Assembly: GCF_001314875.1 (NCBI RefSeq)
Contig: NZ_LJZS01000004.1
Span: 1 to 64,000, forward strand
Direction: 5' to 3'
Length of the DNA: 64,000 nucleotides
Source of the DNA: Halomonas sp. HL-48
Lineage (GTDB): Bacteria > Pseudomonadota > Gammaproteobacteria > Pseudomonadales > Halomonadaceae
A model generated the notes under the pieces. That model worked only from the letters and a program-made list of their open reading frames with translations, made no database searches and had not been told where the DNA came from. Numbering within the stretch: the first letter of the stretch is position 1; each line of letters starts with the position of its first letter. Below are positions 304 through 10,036 of the stretch, piece by piece. The position numbers and the translations under genes were made by a program.

Positions 304-1185
304 TCACACCAGCGCCACGCGCTCCGGTTTTTCACTCAACCACTGCTGCCTTAACCCGCGCTGCTGGTCGAGTAGCAGCGTTAGATACGGCTGTAGCGGA
401 TGTGTAGTAGGTAGCTGGTCGCGGTGGTGTTGCAGGCGGGGGCGGTGTTCGAGTTGCTTGGCGGGGTCGTGGAAAGTGGTGGCTTGTTCGGTGAGCCATG
501 TTAGCGGCGGGAGTAATAGGTGCGAAGCGCCGCTGGAAAGCGCGATGCTTAGGCCTTTGACATCGAAGTCGCCTGCGTAAAGGTGCGGCTTTTGGGTGTC
601 GTTCCAGGCGCTGGCGAGTTGTTTGAAGCCACCCCCGTAGTGGCTGTCGCCGCGGTAGACGACCAGTGGGTTTGCGTAGTCGCTCAGCACGGGCTGTTGC
701 GGTGAAAAGGCGTAAAAGCTGTCCAGGTTTTCGACCTGGATGAGTACGTCGCACGCTTCCAGGTTGATCTCTCGCCAGTCGACATCTTGCATTGAGCGTT
801 GTTGGGTCGAGAGCCAAGCGGGGGAGCTGGCGGGAATGTTAACCAGCACCCGCTGGGCGCGCGGGCCTTCGCGGTTGGTTTTATCTTCATTGACGCCCTG
901 CTCCGCTTGCGCCGTGCTGGTCAAGCCGCTTTGCCATTGCTCAATGGTGACCAGTCGTTGGCTTTCAAGTGCTTCGTTTACCTGCTGAATAAGGGCACGG
1001 TCAAAGCGCAGGGATTGATGACTTAGCCGAGGGCCAAGCTCAATTTCATGCGCATCGCACCAGCGGATGAAGGTTGCGACCCATTGCTGGCTGCGCTTCT
1101 TGTCGACCCGCGTCTGCTTGCGCAGCTGGCGCTCTATTTCGCTTAGCTTTTTGTAAGCCTGGGCAGTGAGCGTCTGGTCATCCAT
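304..1185 (-). CDS. JetD/MksG-like Toprim-fold protein
   Basis: Last gene of the SMC-type operon, 293 residues from the ATG at 1185, which follows the stop of the preceding gene by two bases (TAACGATG). The C-terminal half carries a Toprim-like pattern: VENLDSF with Glu152, then YAGDFDVKGL with Asp206 and Asp208. These match the acidic metal-binding residues of JetD (DUF2220), the nuclease subunit of Wadjet plasmid-defence complexes. The N-terminal ~130 residues hold short helices and a basic stretch instead of the full N-terminal domain of typical JetD, which is usually nearer 400 residues. Inferred role: cleavage of DNA captured by the SMC complex. It may instead be an MksG-type partner of a chromosome-organising condensin. 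Confidence 0.7.
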   Translation of the reverse strand: MDDQTLTAQAYKKLSEIERQLRKQTRVDKKRSQQWVATFIRWCDAHEIELGPRLSHQSLRFDRALIQQVNEALESQRLVTIEQWQSGLTSTAQAEQGVNEDKTNREGPRAQRVLVNIPASSPAWLSTQQRSMQDVDWREINLEACDVLIQVENLDSFYAFSPQQPVLSDYANPLVVYRGDSHYGGGFKQLASAWNDTQKPHLYAGDFDVKGLSIALSSGASHLLLPPLTWLTEQATTFHDPAKQLEHRPRLQHHRDQLPTTHPLQPYLTLLLDQQRGLRQQWLSEKPERVALV

Positions 1186-1187
1186 CG

Positions 1188-2432
1188 TTACACCGCCAGA
1201 CCTAACGAAACGTCGCGGATCAGCTTCACATCGTTGTAGGCGCTCGCCCGCTCCTCCTGCTGATGAAGATGAAACGCGCGCTGTTCGCTGTGCGGCAGGC
1301 CCTGGTGCTCGGCGATGACCTGGAACAGCCAGATTTCTGGAGGCCACTGCAGCTCGCTTTGGTTCAGGTAGTCCAGGGCGCTGATGGGCGTTTGCTCGGC
1401 GCGGTCCACCACATTGAGGTAGAAGGTTTCGACGTCATCCTTGAGGGCCTGCTGGCGGGCGGCGATGAGCGTGTCTTCGACGTGTTCCGCCGGGCGTGCC
1501 GCGGTGACCGACTGGGCGGCACGTAACGGCGTGGGCACATTTTCCAGCAGTGCGCTGAGGGTGGGCATGTCCTGGGCGCGATCAAGCGCGACGGCCCCGG
1601 CGGCGGTGAGGGGGGCGGCGTGATTGAACAGCGCGGGCACCTCGCTGCGGCGGGCGTAGTTGCCGGGGGTAAAGCCGGGGTGTTCGCGCAGGAAGGCGGC
1701 CATGCCTGAGACCAGGCGGCTGCGTGCCTGCATGCGGCGAAAACGCGCCATCAACTCGATCAGGCGGTGCTGCACTTCACGCAGGCTGGTGTAGTGCTGG
1801 CTGAGCTGCTGTTGCAGCTGGCTGATCAACACCTTGCGCAGCGTGCCGTCGCTGCCTACCAGTTCGATCAACTCGTCAAAGTCGATCAGCGCCAGCCCAT
1901 CGAGCAGGCGGACCACCTGCTTTTGCGCGCGGTCGTTTTCGCGCACCTTGTCGTTGAGCTGGCTGACAAAGCCAAAATCGCTGTTGAGCCGCTGCCACAG
2001 GCTGTCGATGGCGTCGGCAAAGCGGCCGTTCATGTCATCCACCGCCTGGCGCAGGCGCAACAGTTGCTGCTCCTGCTGCCAGTAGTCGCCGCGGCTGCTC
2101 GAATCGCGATAGCTCTGGATCAGGCTGCGAATCAGCTCCAGTGCCTCGGCCACATCGGCGTTGACGTGGCGCCGGGCTTCATCGGACACCATTTCGGCGA
2201 TCAGCTCGCGCACCTTGGGGGTCAGCTTGAGGCCGCCCTGCTCGTCGGGCCGCCAGACAATCCGCGCGCTTAAAAGCTTGCGCAGCGCAGTGTGGCTTAG
2301 CCCTTCCAGGGGCACTTGATCGTTGGCGTAGCCCTGCATCAGCGCCTCGGCGTGGCGGCCCAGCAGGGCCAGGCGCTCCACCCCGGTGGTGATCAGGCGG
2401 CTTTCCAGTCCTGACGTTTCCGCGTCGTTCAC
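1188..2432 (-). CDS. JetA/MksF-like kleisin subunit
   Basis: 414 residues, starting at an ATG that overlaps the stop of the upstream gene (ATGA). The first ~110 residues look like a winged-helix region, followed by long amphipathic helices (about 110-260) and a mostly helical C-terminus. I assign it as the kleisin (JetA/MksF) because of size, helix pattern and position beside a small winged-helix protein, a giant SMC ATPase and a Toprim protein; there is no short diagnostic motif. Known: kleisins bridge the SMC heads and bind the JetB/MksE dimer. The gene is translationally coupled to its neighbours, suggesting fixed subunit ratios. Confidence 0.65.
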   Translation of the reverse strand: MNDAETSGLESRLITTGVERLALLGRHAEALMQGYANDQVPLEGLSHTALRKLLSARIVWRPDEQGGLKLTPKVRELIAEMVSDEARRHVNADVAEALELIRSLIQSYRDSSSRGDYWQQEQQLLRLRQAVDDMNGRFADAIDSLWQRLNSDFGFVSQLNDKVRENDRAQKQVVRLLDGLALIDFDELIELVGSDGTLRKVLISQLQQQLSQHYTSLREVQHRLIELMARFRRMQARSRLVSGMAAFLREHPGFTPGNYARRSEVPALFNHAAPLTAAGAVALDRAQDMPTLSALLENVPTPLRAAQSVTAARPAEHVEDTLIAARQQALKDDVETFYLNVVDRAEQTPISALDYLNQSELQWPPEIWLFQVIAEHQGLPHSEQRAFHLHQQEERASAYNDVKLIRDVSLGLAV

Positions 2433-3070
2433 AGCAGCGCCTCCTGGGTATCCTCGCCCTCGTCGTCCACCGGCAGGTGTTCTTCATCGCGAATAAAGCG
2501 CACCAGTTCGAGCAGGTAGTCGACCTTGCCGGTGACCAGAAACACCTGGCGGTCGGCGTGGGGTTGCAGCAGGTAGCCGTGCTCTCTTAACCGCTTGAAC
2601 ACCTGCTTGACCTGAGCGTCCAGCTGATCGCTTTGGGAACCGAAGAAGCTGTCGGTTGCCAATCGTTCAATGCGTTCGCGCAGGCTGGGGTTGTCTTCGC
2701 TTTTGGCCTGCAGCTCGCCGGGTTTGAGTACATCGCCGGGGGACAGCACGCTGTCGCGGCCCAGGGCTTCCTGCACCAGTTGGAGCCATTCCAGCAGCGG
2801 CAGCAGGCTGTTGACGGTGTCGCCCAGTTGGCGGGCGAGCTGGTCCCGCGCGCTGTCATCCAGCTGACGCCAGGCGAGAAAATACACGCCTTCCTCCTGG
2901 TTGCTGGCCACGCGGCGGTTAAGCGGGCGCAGGTAGCTGTCGATTGCCTCGCGGGTGGCGTCATCCTGCAGGCGCTTGAAGGCGCTTTCGTCGCTCACCG
3001 CGCAGATAAACTCGCCCGCCAGCAGCCGTTCCAGCAGCGGTCCATGCGGCAACAGACTCATATCGCTCAT
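2429..3070 (-). CDS. JetB/MksE-like accessory subunit
   Basis: 213 residues, starting with ATG overlapping the upstream TGA by four bases and ending in the same way at the next gene. The size, helix-rich N-terminal half and a C-terminal winged-helix-like segment (about 150-200, around VFKRLREHGYLL) fit the KITE-type subunit JetB (DUF4194) or MksE. In such complexes a dimer of this protein binds the kleisin and DNA. The C-terminus is very acidic (DDEGEDTQE). The call rests mainly on the operon; the sequence alone would only suggest a winged-helix protein. Confidence 0.65.
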   Translation of the reverse strand: MSDMSLLPHGPLLERLLAGEFICAVSDESAFKRLQDDATREAIDSYLRPLNRRVASNQEEGVYFLAWRQLDDSARDQLARQLGDTVNSLLPLLEWLQLVQEALGRDSVLSPGDVLKPGELQAKSEDNPSLRERIERLATDSFFGSQSDQLDAQVKQVFKRLREHGYLLQPHADRQVFLVTGKVDYLLELVRFIRDEEHLPVDDEGEDTQEALL

Positions 3071-6000
3071 ACCGGCACCTCCTCATGGCGGGCTTTAAGG
3101 CGCTCGGCCAGGCGGCTCTGACGGGGTTCGATGCGTTTTAGCCGTCGTTTGGCGGGGTCGTCGGCGTCGCGGTCGATCAGGTAGCGGTTATGGAACAGCA
3201 GCAGCACGTCGGATTCCGGGTTGGGGAAGGCGCCGACAATATGAATCTGGTTGCTGTCGCAGGCGTCGAACAGCTTTTCGACGTTGTGGTAGGCAAGCGT
3301 ACCGATCTCGTCGATGGGCCAGTGGATGGCGATCGCCGCCCGGCCGCGCAGCAGGCGGGTAAAGGCAAGCAGGAACTTGCACAGAATCAGATACGCCATG
3401 CCGTGGCTGGACGATTCGAGCAGTTGGCGGTCGTTCTTGATGATCAGGTCGGTGCCGCCTTCGTTGAGGTGCAGCTCCAGGCGTAGCAGGCTTTCAAAGC
3501 TGTACTGCTGATCGCTGCGCAGCAAATCGACCACGTCCGCCAGGGCGTTGAGGTAGTCGTCGCTGGGCAGGGTCTGCTCGGAGTCGCGCCAGGCCTTGTA
3601 GCGCTGGGCGAACAGCTTGAGCGGCTCCCAGAAGCCGAGTTCGTCGATGGTCGACTGGATACGTACCTCGGCCTTGCTGATGCCATCCAGGCGCAGGTCG
3701 TCGGCCACTTCATCCGAGAGGCGCTTGCTCTGGGCGCTGATGCGGCGGTTGAGGTCGCGGAACACGGTGAAGAACTTGTCCAGATCGTCGCTGAGGTTGC
3801 GCCCCTGCTGAATCAGCTGTTGTTGCTGGTCTTCCAGCAGTTTGAGCATGCCGCCGAGCAGCGGCAGCAATGCGCGGGGGTCGTCGGGATCGCTGAGCTT
3901 GGCGCGCTCGCTTTCCAGGGCGTCGACAAAGCTGGTGCTCGCCCCTTTAATCAGCTGACTTTCGACCTCCTGACAGCCTTTGCGCAGCGCGTCGCGTTCC
4001 TGGGCGCGGCGTTTGAGAGCCTCGCGGCTGCGCGCCAGTCGCTCGCCCACATCGCCGGGGGCTTCCTGCTGGGGCGTGGCGTCCGAGGTCAGGGTGAGTT
4101 CATCGAGCTGCTTGAGCAGCGGCTTGAGGTCGTTGAGTACCTCGTGGCTCTCGCGGCGCTTGGTTTCAAACGCGGCGACGTGCTGCTGGTGGGCGGCCTT
4201 GGTGGCTTTGAAGGCCTGCTGGTGTTCCTCGCGCTTACGCTGGGCGGCGTCTATCTCACGGCTTAAACGCCCTTCCTGCTCGACCAGTTCGGGTTTGCGC
4301 TGCCCCCAGCTTACGCGCATAAAGCGCTTGTAGGCGTCCAGCTCGTCCTGGCGGGCGGCGGTGTGACGGATGTGCTCGTCCAATTGCTGCAGCCGAGCTT
4401 TGGTATCCCTCATTTTTTTCGGATCGAAGCCCTGGGCTTTCAATTCCTGGTCGAATGCCTCTTCCAGCTCGGCGCACTGGCGCTTGTGTTCGGCCTTCTG
4501 TTCGGTGAGCTGGGTTTTGTACTGCTGAATCTGCCGGTCGATGGAATCCAGCTGGCTTTGCGCGTCGGCTTTTAGCTCCAGCAGTTCGGCCTGATGGGCG
4601 GCGTTTAGCTTGTCCAGCGCGGTCTGGCGTTCGTCGCGCAGGGCTTGCTGCTGCGCTTCCTGTTCTGCCAGGGCAGCCTCTTGCTCGGCCTTGCGCTGGC
4701 GTTGCGCCTCGGCATGGCGTGCCTGGCACTGGCGGCGGGCCTCCTGGGCGTATTCGACTTCTTCATCGGCACGCTTCACCGCCAACTGGGCCTGGCTTAG
4801 CGCTTCATCGGCGGCCTGGACGCGCTCATTATGCCGTTTGAGCTGCTTTTCGCTGTTGGTAAGCTCGGCCTCGGCGCGCACCACGGCGTCGTCCGCCGCT
4901 TCAATGGCGGCCAGCAGGCTGGCTTCATCCTGGGCGTAGTCCGGCGGCTCGATCAGATGGGTATCCAGCACCAGGCCGTAAAGGTCGTCGCTGGGTTGCT
5001 CGGTCAAGGTCGGCGACAGGTCACGGCGCTCCAACAGCTCGGGGGCGATCACCTTGCCCAGCCGCTGCTCCCATTCGGGCAGGTGGTAGCGCAGGAAATG
5101 GCGCAGCGAGCCTTGGGCGGGGTCGCGCTGGCGGTGCAGCGCCTGGCTGGTTTGCTGGGCGCGGGTCAGCGTCCGGCGGGCATCCGCGTGGGCCTGTTCG
5201 GCGCTGTCGCGTTCGCGCTTGAGGCTATCCAGCTCGCGGCGCTGGCTTTCCCGCTGGCTGCTGGCGGCGTTGTGGTCGCTTTGCGCCTGGTCGATCCGCG
5301 CCTGAATCAGGGCGGCCTCTTCGCTTTCCTCCGCCGTGGGGCCGCTGTGGCTCAGCGCGGCTTTCAGCGCTGCCAGCCGTTCAACCCCCTGGTTGAGGCG
5401 TTCCTGAAAGTCGGCTTCTGTCTCTTCGCGCTGGGTCTGGTAGCGGGCATCGAGATTGCGCTGGGCCTCCCAGTGGGCTTCCTGATGCGCGGCCTTTTCT
5501 TCGTTGAGGGCATCGACCAGCCCCTGGATCTCTTCGCTTTGGCGGGCCAGCGCTTCGCCCAGCTCGCGTAGCCGCTCTTCCTTGCGGGCCTGGCTTGCCT
5601 GCACGGCCTCTTGCAGGGCGGTCAGGTGGCTTTTCAGTTGCTCGAACTGCTCACGTTTTTGGGGCAGCGCGTTGAGGTCGCGCTCAAGGGCGGGCATGTC
5701 TGCCGCCTCATAGGCTTCGTACTGGTCCTGCAGGTCGCTCAGGTCGCGCTGGGTTTGTTTGAGACCGCTTTCCAGCTCGCTGAGCTGCTCGTTCAGCTCA
5801 TCCCGGACCGCCTCGTAGGCGTTTTTCTCGGCGTCGAATGCCTCTTGCCGTGTCCCCATCTCGGCTTCGGCATCGGCCAGGGTGCGCTCGATGTGGTGGC
5901 GGTCGGCTTCCAGCTGTGGTTTCAGCTGCCACAGTGAGGCCTCCACATCCGCCAACTCGCGGTCAACGTCGTGCAGCTTGGCAAGCGAGCGCTGCAGCGG

Positions 6001-6750
6001 CTCCAGGCGCATGGATTGGCGCATCTGGTCAATCCACTCCCGCGCCTTGGCGCTGCGGATGCGTGTCACCGGCAGTTCGACGCCGTCCTCTTCAAAGATC
6101 GCCGCCAGCATGGTCTTGAGGGTATCCATCTTGCCTTCTTTGGCATGCACCGCCGAGACCAGCTTTTCGATATGGCGAATGCGATGCTCAGGCTTGACCA
6201 GGCTAAACTGCGCGGCCATCTGGCGCAGCTTGAGGGCATCCTTGCGATTGCCGTGGGGCATGATGCCGGGCGTGGGGGTAAAGTCGTTCTGGATCACCGC
6301 GCGGTATTCGGAGGTGGCGGTAAGCTTGGACGAGACGTTGATGCTCTCCCGGCGCAGGCCGTTGGCCCACTGGGCGTACTCCAGTGCCACGGCGCCGTCT
6401 TCTCCCTCCACCAGATAATCTTCTGGCCGGTAAGGGGCGGCGACAAAACGATACTCCACCCCGCCTTCCGATTTGCGGGTCAGCACCACCTGGCAGATAT
6501 TGCCCGCTTCGCGGCGGTATTCGTAGACCAGATAACTGTTGCGGTGGGGCAGGTAAAACGCGTCGAACTTCATGCGCGTCTTGGGCACTACCTTATTAGG
6601 TAGCTCGCCGTAAAACACCGGCACCAGGCGCTGGAGGGTGGTTTTACCCGAGGCGTTGGTGCCGCAAATATTGGTGTGGCCATCCACACTCAGTTCGACC
6701 ACGCCTTCCAGGTGGCCGTGAATCATCACGATGCGTAGCAGGTGGGCCAT
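3067..6750 (-). CDS. JetC/MksB-like SMC ATPase
   Basis: 1227 residues, first gene of the operon, with ribosome site AAGGA seven bases before the ATG. An SMC architecture is visible: Walker A GTNASGKTT at residues 30-38; long heptad-rich coiled coils from about 240 to 500 and 620 to 940, broken by a hinge-like middle; then a signature-like SSSHGMAYL near 1113 and Walker B AIHWPIDEIG with Asp1147-Glu1148. It should hydrolyse ATP and entrap or extrude DNA. Known families with this kleisin/KITE/Toprim company are Wadjet JetC and MksB. Unusual: the ATPase gene is first, whereas described JetABCD and MksFEB-G operons place it third. The divergent neighbour at 6823 is metabolic. Confidence 0.8.
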   Translation of the reverse strand: MAHLLRIVMIHGHLEGVVELSVDGHTNICGTNASGKTTLQRLVPVFYGELPNKVVPKTRMKFDAFYLPHRNSYLVYEYRREAGNICQVVLTRKSEGGVEYRFVAAPYRPEDYLVEGEDGAVALEYAQWANGLRRESINVSSKLTATSEYRAVIQNDFTPTPGIMPHGNRKDALKLRQMAAQFSLVKPEHRIRHIEKLVSAVHAKEGKMDTLKTMLAAIFEEDGVELPVTRIRSAKAREWIDQMRQSMRLEPLQRSLAKLHDVDRELADVEASLWQLKPQLEADRHHIERTLADAEAEMGTRQEAFDAEKNAYEAVRDELNEQLSELESGLKQTQRDLSDLQDQYEAYEAADMPALERDLNALPQKREQFEQLKSHLTALQEAVQASQARKEERLRELGEALARQSEEIQGLVDALNEEKAAHQEAHWEAQRNLDARYQTQREETEADFQERLNQGVERLAALKAALSHSGPTAEESEEAALIQARIDQAQSDHNAASSQRESQRRELDSLKRERDSAEQAHADARRTLTRAQQTSQALHRQRDPAQGSLRHFLRYHLPEWEQRLGKVIAPELLERRDLSPTLTEQPSDDLYGLVLDTHLIEPPDYAQDEASLLAAIEAADDAVVRAEAELTNSEKQLKRHNERVQAADEALSQAQLAVKRADEEVEYAQEARRQCQARHAEAQRQRKAEQEAALAEQEAQQQALRDERQTALDKLNAAHQAELLELKADAQSQLDSIDRQIQQYKTQLTEQKAEHKRQCAELEEAFDQELKAQGFDPKKMRDTKARLQQLDEHIRHTAARQDELDAYKRFMRVSWGQRKPELVEQEGRLSREIDAAQRKREEHQQAFKATKAAHQQHVAAFETKRRESHEVLNDLKPLLKQLDELTLTSDATPQQEAPGDVGERLARSREALKRRAQERDALRKGCQEVESQLIKGASTSFVDALESERAKLSDPDDPRALLPLLGGMLKLLEDQQQQLIQQGRNLSDDLDKFFTVFRDLNRRISAQSKRLSDEVADDLRLDGISKAEVRIQSTIDELGFWEPLKLFAQRYKAWRDSEQTLPSDDYLNALADVVDLLRSDQQYSFESLLRLELHLNEGGTDLIIKNDRQLLESSSHGMAYLILCKFLLAFTRLLRGRAAIAIHWPIDEIGTLAYHNVEKLFDACDSNQIHIVGAFPNPESDVLLLFHNRYLIDRDADDPAKRRLKRIEPRQSRLAERLKARHEEVPV

Positions 6751-6822
6751 GCCGTATCCTTGGACAGGTTTTTTTCGTTGCAGTGTTAGGCTACATTCTA
6801 CGCTATCTCATTTGGAGACGTT

Positions 6823-9401: not shown

Positions 9402-9707
9402 TTACGACGCATGGCGCGTTAAGTCATGAAAGTGCACACCAGTGGCTTTGATGACTGCGGTCATCGTGCGCAAGGTAGGGTTACCCTTAGGTGATAACGC
9501 ACGATACAAGCTTTCTCTTGATAACTTGGCACGTTCAGCGACGACGGCCATTCCACCCTGGGCTTCCACCACATGGCGAAGTGCCATAAGAAAGGCCGTT
9601 TCCCCACCTTCCTCGTCCAGCTCATCAAAAGCGGTGCGTAGATAATCGACAGCCATGTCGGGATCTTCACGAAGCATGGTAATCACAGCATCGTCATGGC
9701 TTTTCAT
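9402..9707 (-). CDS. Antitoxin, helix-turn-helix (HI1420/HigA-like)
   Basis: 101 residues; its ATG overlaps the toxin stop by four bases. The C-terminal half is an Xre-type helix-turn-helix (MAVVAERAKLSRESLYRAL, with NPTLRTMTAV as the following helix), as in the addiction-module antidote family. The acidic N-terminal part should wrap the toxin. The order is toxin then antitoxin. Known behaviour for such pairs is that the antitoxin also represses the shared promoter, here upstream of 10036. Confidence 0.85.
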   Translation of the reverse strand: MKSHDDAVITMLREDPDMAVDYLRTAFDELDEEGGETAFLMALRHVVEAQGGMAVVAERAKLSRESLYRALSPKGNPTLRTMTAVIKATGVHFHDLTRHAS

Positions 9708-10036
9708 TTCTTCACCCTCTTTCGGTAGTCCACCAAAAATGCCTTTGCCTGTTCAATATCGGCCTGCTGACGTTTTTTGGTGCCTCCGGTCAATAGAAGA
9801 ACCAACCGTCTTCCCACTTTAGCGTAATAGACGCGATAGCCTGGACCATAGTCGATACGAAGCTCCATCACACCGTCGCCCACGCTTTTAGCATCGCCCG
9901 CATTACCGGCGACAAGTCGGTTAAGGCGCGTTAATACGCGCATAGCAGCCTGCCGATCTTTCGCCTTGGTAGCATCTAACCAAGCCTGGAAGGGATCATG
10001 ACCATCAGCAGTCAAGTAATGCGATAAGGACGTCAT
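9704..10036 (-). CDS. RelE/ParE-superfamily toxin (HI1419/HigB-like)
   Basis: 110 residues. The hallmark block of the addiction-module killer family is present: ELRIDYGPGYRVYY, then LVLLLTGGTKKRQQADI at about 79-95. These toxins usually act as ribosome-dependent mRNA interferases. The frame is intact, so the module looks functional. It sits directly downstream of the terminator of the tRNA-Leu gene on the same strand, a common site for mobile accessory genes, but I see no repeated tRNA end that would mark an integration event. Confidence 0.85.
   Translation of the reverse strand: MTSLSHYLTADGHDPFQAWLDATKAKDRQAAMRVLTRLNRLVAGNAGDAKSVGDGVMELRIDYGPGYRVYYAKVGRRLVLLLTGGTKKRQQADIEQAKAFLVDYRKRVKK

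Follow-up and report, generated by a model that had tools for sequence, protein, structure and literature searches.

An SMC-first, MksBEFG/Wadjet-like operon in Halomonas sp. HL-48 and the repeated loss of its probable nuclease gene among relatives

Organization of the operon

The window analysed here, a stretch of 64,000 nucleotides from Halomonas sp. HL-48, carries at positions 304-6750 four genes (C, B, A and D) that fill this interval, all of them intact, adjacent and placed on the minus strand (Table 1). A sequence-only reading of this DNA had described four tightly coupled minus-strand genes, and its coordinates and sizes are borne out. Genes C and B overlap by ATGA and genes B and A by GTGA, with a spacing of 2 nt between A and D; on account of these short overlaps and the narrow gap, C, B, A and D very probably constitute a single operon. 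Further along the window (9402-10036, minus strand) two small overlapping genes resemble a toxin-antitoxin pair of the HigB-HigA type, as judged by eye from their translations.

Table 1. Positions of the genes, catalytic codons and spacer within the window
Feature	Position	Strand	Description
Gene C	3067..6750	-	MksB/JetC-like SMC ATPase, 1227 aa, first gene of the probable operon
Gene B	2429..3070	-	MksE/JetB-like KITE, 213 aa
Gene A	1188..2432	-	Probable MukF/JetA-type kleisin, 414 aa, GTG start
Gene D	304..1185	-	Short JetD/MksG-like Toprim nuclease, DUF7281, 293 aa from ATG
D Glu152 codon	730..732	-	Counterpart of MksG Glu236 (profile alignment to 8b7f)
D Asp206-Phe207-Asp208 codons	562..570	-	DxD motif of the Toprim core, with Asp206 corresponding to MksG Asp279
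72-nt spacer	6751..6822	.	Lies between C and the divergently oriented aminotransferase-like gene; presumed to hold the promoter; from ORF coordinates

The motor subunits

The product of gene C matches the Pfam family DUF3584 (PF12128) over residues 8-1193 with an E-value of 1.7e-233; this match, along with the recurrence of all four genes elsewhere, makes the four-gene set more than a chance assembly. MksB of Pseudomonas aeruginosa is shorter. The Walker A motif (GTNASGKTT, residues 30-38), the signature (S1114-S1115-x-G1117) and the Walker B pair (D1147-E1148) are invariant in a 10-row alignment. The Walker residues had already been located in the sequence-only reading, as had Glu152, Asp206 and Asp208 of D, and all were found again. 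Searched alone against PDB sequences, C gave five matches with E 0.027 or worse, one of them an SMC2 fragment; its profile found one SMC4 chain (5.3e-5), within the coiled coil, and no MukB chain at E 0.001. The genome of HL-48 contains a single match to C and also encodes a full canonical SMC (1066.9 bits), so that the operon represents a second SMC complex. Of 50 genomes sampled from the window's own genus, 43 contain C.

The product of B scores 28.0 bits against MksE (PF21980), one bit over the cut-off of 27, and remains under the cut-off for DUF4194 (PF13835). On this narrow sequence match B is a probable MksE/JetB-like KITE, in keeping with the earlier description of the 213-residue protein as KITE-like.

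For A there was no relevant family match among Pfam and PADLOC models and no kleisin sequence match, and the profile of the A proteins returned six PDB matches, mostly designed or helical proteins, none named as a kleisin. The AlphaFold2 model (pLDDT 79.9, pTM 0.43) finds chains from MukBEF/MukEF or Wadjet entries at Foldseek ranks 1-10 (best E 1.6e-3, none at 0.001), their identity as kleisins being read from entry titles and chain lengths. Alignment with VIA-align to MukF-type chains reaches Z 12-13 but with rmsd values of 16-49, and on this scale unrelated helical proteins reach Z 10-12 and helical models often come near 13 by chance. The predicted fold, at a marginal E-value, is suggestive of a MukF/JetA-type kleisin. 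The 414-residue protein had been proposed as kleisin-like; by sequence it matches no family, and its predicted fold suggests a kleisin.

The nuclease subunit

The product of D matches DUF7281 (PF23947) with an E-value of 6.5e-15 and scores 17.9 bits against JetD_C of Pfam (PF09983), under the gathering cut-off of 22. DUF7281 is matched by all 16 D proteins compared and JetD_C by 5 of the 16 at E 0.01. Residues 111-289 of the predicted model (pLDDT 81.6, pTM 0.61) superpose on Corynebacterium glutamicum MksG with Z 11.1 and an rmsd of 3.4 over 149 aligned positions; the fold compares with topoisomerase VI A at Z 11.0 and with P. aeruginosa JetD at Z 9.2. Searched alone against PDB sequences, D retrieved only two chains, both unrelated. 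In a profile built from the 16 relatives, the motifs VENLD and GDFD of D line up with their MksG counterparts (8b7f), a match that is weak alone (E 0.98), yet agrees with the fold comparison. Both comparisons place E152 of D at MksG E236 and D206 at MksG D279 (the 8b7f chain is tagged, and a numbering offset of 106 fits both residues); part of the MksG study describes the E236A and D279A mutants as drastically impaired (PMC10123090). An alignment of 17 rows shows no change at E152, D206 or D208, which are present in 86/86, 85/86 and 86/86 D sequences, respectively, in a set that holds at least one genome twice; the sole exception is the truncated D of locus L109. From its profile match and predicted fold, D is a predicted Toprim nuclease of the JetD/MksG type with the catalytic Glu and DxD.

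Ahead of its matched Toprim core D has about 110 residues, as against about 205-217 in the solved JetD/MksG structures; therefore the shortened part of the protein is the N-terminal one, and the small size (293 residues) remarked on earlier goes with a retained core. An upstream GTG would make D 347 residues long; the aligned relatives start near the 293-residue ATG. In two Ferrimonas loci D has only 222 (L149, 11547-12215) and 221 residues (L150, 10213-10878), with most of the N-terminal part gone and the Toprim core kept. Taken together, profiles and predicted folds support the component list first proposed: SMC, KITE, kleisin-like and Toprim proteins.

Gene order among relatives

The order C-B-A-D is observed in all 38 loci that have such an SMC and D, namely the window and 37 others, four plasmids included, and C-B-A in 22/22 loci without D, confirming that the arrangement is unlike the described mksFEBG order, which has been called conserved in part of PMC10123090. 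The sample covers Halomonadaceae, Pseudomonadaceae, Shewanella, Alteromonadaceae, Methylobacter, Ferrimonas, Marinobacterium and plasmids; L138, with C cut at the contig end, was counted for order and kept outside the tree described below, and L089, L125, L126 and L151 entered neither. In Pseudomonadaceae, the family of Azotobacter beijerinckii, 42 of 248 genomes match, and 18 of the 20 loci read from these 42 contain D (L190 seems to be the same contig as L143). C is also matched by 38 plasmid records. The order C-B-A-D is seen in all four that were examined, two of which are typed as conjugative; in the one from Vibrio campbellii both C and A are split. On that V. campbellii conjugative plasmid (pLA16-1) the split operon adjoins a yejK nucleoid-associated protein gene (L152, 12988-13989).

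A search of the class added nine further matching genomes. Three have C-B-A-D (G449, G275, G392) and two are cut by a contig end (G238, G409). In G209 (locus L080, 1174-6567, minus strand) the sizes of 413-185-936-277 residues correspond to a locus that starts with the kleisin and whose SMC, at 936 residues, is much shorter; the DUF7281 match of this locus (22.3 bits) is under the cut-off. G350, G351 and G433 have DUF7281 matches in other gene arrangements, and loci of this sort were left out of the order counts. The idea that an SMC-first order is universal for DUF7281 was discarded on the basis of these last four genomes; it goes with this kind of SMC only.

The aminotransferase neighbour of the window recurs in 7 of 85 loci, many of which have only 1500 bases of flank, and the upstream flanks cluster mostly within genera (single linkage). 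A conserved neighbourhood was dropped for this low recurrence, and a shared site is claimed only where flanks aligned. The locus had been regarded as an unusual subtype for its order and its short D. Both traits are real, but relatives with this kind of SMC generally share them, whether chromosomal or on the four plasmids examined, which points to a broad branch and not to a single odd locus.

Loss of the nuclease gene

Within the 201 genomes of the window's family, C was matched in 91 and D in 77. The 91 C-bearing genomes comprise 72 with D by a search with the window's D, six in which a profile detected a divergent D beside a divergent C, 12 with a full-length C and no D, and one (G183) with a fragment of C only. 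Absence in the 12 refers to a whole-genome search with the window's D and to a profile search of the fetched locus only; since the window's D as query missed the divergent gene in six genomes, a divergent nuclease elsewhere in D-less genomes could escape notice. Conversely, D occurs without a match to C in five genomes: G076, G102 (a shortened D), and G117, G140 and G166 (short D fragments only).

A tree was built from 59 C proteins by a quick method with SH-aLRT support only, and it shows several long branches; 22 of its rows lack D. This distribution takes 12 state changes, which may include gains, and at least 11 are forced by supported (starred) branches. The 18 rows outside a 41-row core clade all carry D, several of them having been collected via D matches, which favours D there. 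C and D are co-inherited: their identities rise and fall together (Spearman 0.934 for the 19 core-clade rows with D and 0.577 for all 37), and none of 999 permutations was as high in either set.

A closer view of the losses came from alignments of D-less loci with D-bearing sisters, in which the stop of A lies at 300. Against L111 (D at 297-1178) four scars are seen within one genus: L093 and L094 align to 304 and resume at 1223, with about 435 bases between, L095 breaks at 348 and resumes at 1205, L102 at 361 and 1223, and L103 at 304 and 1147. L096 and L104 share a common scar against L112 (413 or 412, resuming at 1250); the scar of L097 against L129 lies at 287 and 1240, and that of L101 against L087 at 266 and 1283. 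L140 and L145 align with L134 to the end of A and resume at 1550 and 1559, past D, while L139 aligns with L134 downstream only, and L098, L099, L100 and L135 gave no alignment on the downstream side. The first codons of D are still readable in L096 (40 codons, 90%), L102 (20, at 90%), L095 (17, at 76%) and also L104. D is therefore deleted in place in close relatives, with differing end points, and is a dispensable, optional module that has been repeatedly lost. Many independent gains of D are ruled out for L095, L096, L102 and L104 by the leftover codons, and elsewhere they are less likely, judging from the tree and the covariation of C and D.

At the D start site of L093 (9734-10156) and L094 (9970-10392) begins a frame of 140 residues that by eye resembles a truncated haemoglobin. 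In G176 (L109, 3567-10967) D breaks off near residue 216, next to an intact C-B-A, and a second, decayed piece (residues 163-285) lies about 6.4 kb further; a simple insertion is excluded, as residues 163-216 are present in both pieces. The gene of 1324 residues between the two pieces has a start that by eye resembles a restriction-type domain.

Selection on the remaining genes

All 22 D-less loci have open reading frames of nearly full length for C, B and A. Pairwise omega values (Nei-Gojobori) for C/B/A were 0.054/0.030/0.033 in L093-L094 and 0.068/0.043/0.036 in L096-L104, two D-less pairs each sharing one scar, and 0.059/0.066/0.061 in the D-less pair L140-L145, for which one common loss is suggested by the tree. 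The D-bearing pair L128-L131 gave 0.046/0.033/0.045, with 0.121 for D; two more values for D (0.166 and 0.184) both involve the truncated D of L109. Higher values were obtained for L100-L110 (0.147-0.172) and for L099-L130 (C 0.092, B and A 0.26, the automatic ORFs of B and A being over-extended), L134-L139 and L136-L137 were saturated or nearly so, and twelve other values, from comparisons of D-less with D-bearing loci or of loci with different scars, were all 0.09 or below. With dS at 0.25-0.35 in the same-scar pairs, the losses there are not brand new. The low omega values without D indicate strong purifying selection and hence a motor that is maintained without the nuclease, and the repeated loss of D while C, B and A are kept makes plasmid defence unlikely as the only function.

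Discussion

The reading that fits the operon best is that of an SMC-first branch of the MksBEFG/Wadjet superfamily that has so far been under-described. When compared by E-value, without PADLOC's own score thresholds, A and B of the window match no model of PADLOC-DB 2.0.0 at E 1, and C and D give partial, weak matches; no one Wadjet type has models recognizing all four proteins, and the kleisin-first order with the SMC in third place (Wadjet type I, mksFEBG) is absent from the window. It is this failure of the models on kleisin and KITE, and their weakness on the rest, that argues for this reading. In the literature searched, DUF7281 was not mentioned and DUF3584 and Wadjet never appeared in one paper. 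The SMC-first order is unlike the described orders, although we claim no priority of description.

As a member of this superfamily, and by analogy with Wadjet, C, B and A would assemble into an ATP-driven DNA loop extruder, and D, as a minimal JetD/MksG nuclease, would cut once a small circular DNA has been fully extruded, thereby restricting plasmids when D is present. The C-B-A motor would also work without the nuclease, most likely in chromosome organisation alongside the canonical SMC, as proposed by analogy with MksBEF of P. aeruginosa; that there is such a second function is suggested by the repeated absence of D, the deletion scars and the purifying selection on the rest. We give this reading, a loop extruder with a minimal nuclease and a nuclease-independent second function, a probability of about two in three. 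More tentatively, and at slightly less than even odds, the complex could be a dual-purpose condensin with a detachable nuclease, in which the loss of one downstream gene, about a dozen times on the tree of C proteins, turned plasmid destruction into chromosome maintenance.

Three other explanations can be set against this evidence. The locus might be a rearranged and diverged Wadjet of type I, II or III, which we hold to be rather unlikely: type III does supply the best PADLOC matches, with 1.5e-4 for D against JetD3 and, within the coiled coil, 1.5e-9 for C against JetC3, and part of PMC12647877 describes Wadjet types as varying in operon organisation and the coiled coils of type III as mostly long, but at E 0.01 none of 19 kleisins is recognized by a PADLOC JetA model, B of the window matches no model, and at E 0.001 each JetD model reaches at most 3 of 16 D and each JetC model at most 4 of 10 C. 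A system devoted solely to plasmid or phage defence, with the D-less loci decaying or the nuclease supplied in trans, is unlikely. It would account for the decay seen in G117, G140, G166 and G102, for the truncated D of G176 and for the relatives on conjugative plasmids, and the D search of the 12 D-less genomes did miss divergent copies in six others; against it, all 22 D-less loci retain open C, B and A of nearly full length, with omega near 0.05 in same-scar pairs whose dS argues for losses of some age.

Quite improbable, in turn, is a chromosomal condensin in which D would be a topoisomerase-like helper on the chromosome and no defence nuclease. The fold of D is as near to topoisomerase VI A as to MksG (Z 11.0 and 11.1), and C is widespread in its own genus (43/50), as such a role would have it; yet the sole PDB sequence found, weakly, by the D profile is the plasmid nuclease MksG, D evolves at a higher omega than C (0.121 against 0.046 in L128-L131), as an effector in conflict might show, and copies reside on plasmids.

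The feature of greatest interest in this branch is that the nuclease has been lost repeatedly and in part recently. Loss as such is already known, having been suggested in part of a review for the nuclease-free MksBEF of P. aeruginosa; new here is a set of recent D losses, some with readable first codons, with sisters that keep D at the same site, which makes the role of a Wadjet-type motor without nuclease directly testable. Should the dual-purpose reading be true, a proposed step in the origin of nuclease-free condensins would be visible in near-identical natural pairs. In view of the weak PADLOC matches, surveys built on these models may undercount the branch, whose nuclease Pfam lists merely as a domain of unknown function.

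Comparison with known systems

MksBEFG of C. glutamicum (Wadjet type I) resembles the locus in having four components in one operon and a nuclease whose catalytic Glu and Asp align with those of D, but its order is F-E-B-G, against B-E-F-G in the window, and its nuclease (DUF3322 plus DUF2220) has a longer N-terminal part than D, as described in part of PMC10123090. Wadjet JetABCD of types I-III share the component set, the JetD fold and the suggested kleisin-like fold, going by parts of PMC12647877 and PMC10586767, and differ in that their PADLOC models match the window weakly or not at all. With MukBEF of Escherichia coli the window has in common the suggested kleisin-like fold and an SMC of the Mks group; the E. 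coli system is described in part of PMC7617805 as nuclease-free and ordered mukF-E-B, unlike the SMC-first order seen here. The D-less relatives find their counterpart in MksBEF of P. aeruginosa, described in parts of PMC7485682 and PMC10586767 as a second condensin beside the canonical SMC, with no nuclease; membership of that condensin in this branch is a claim we dropped, the likeness being one of description and not of sequence. Its inactivation alters chromosome layout and segregation, according to part of PMC7485682.
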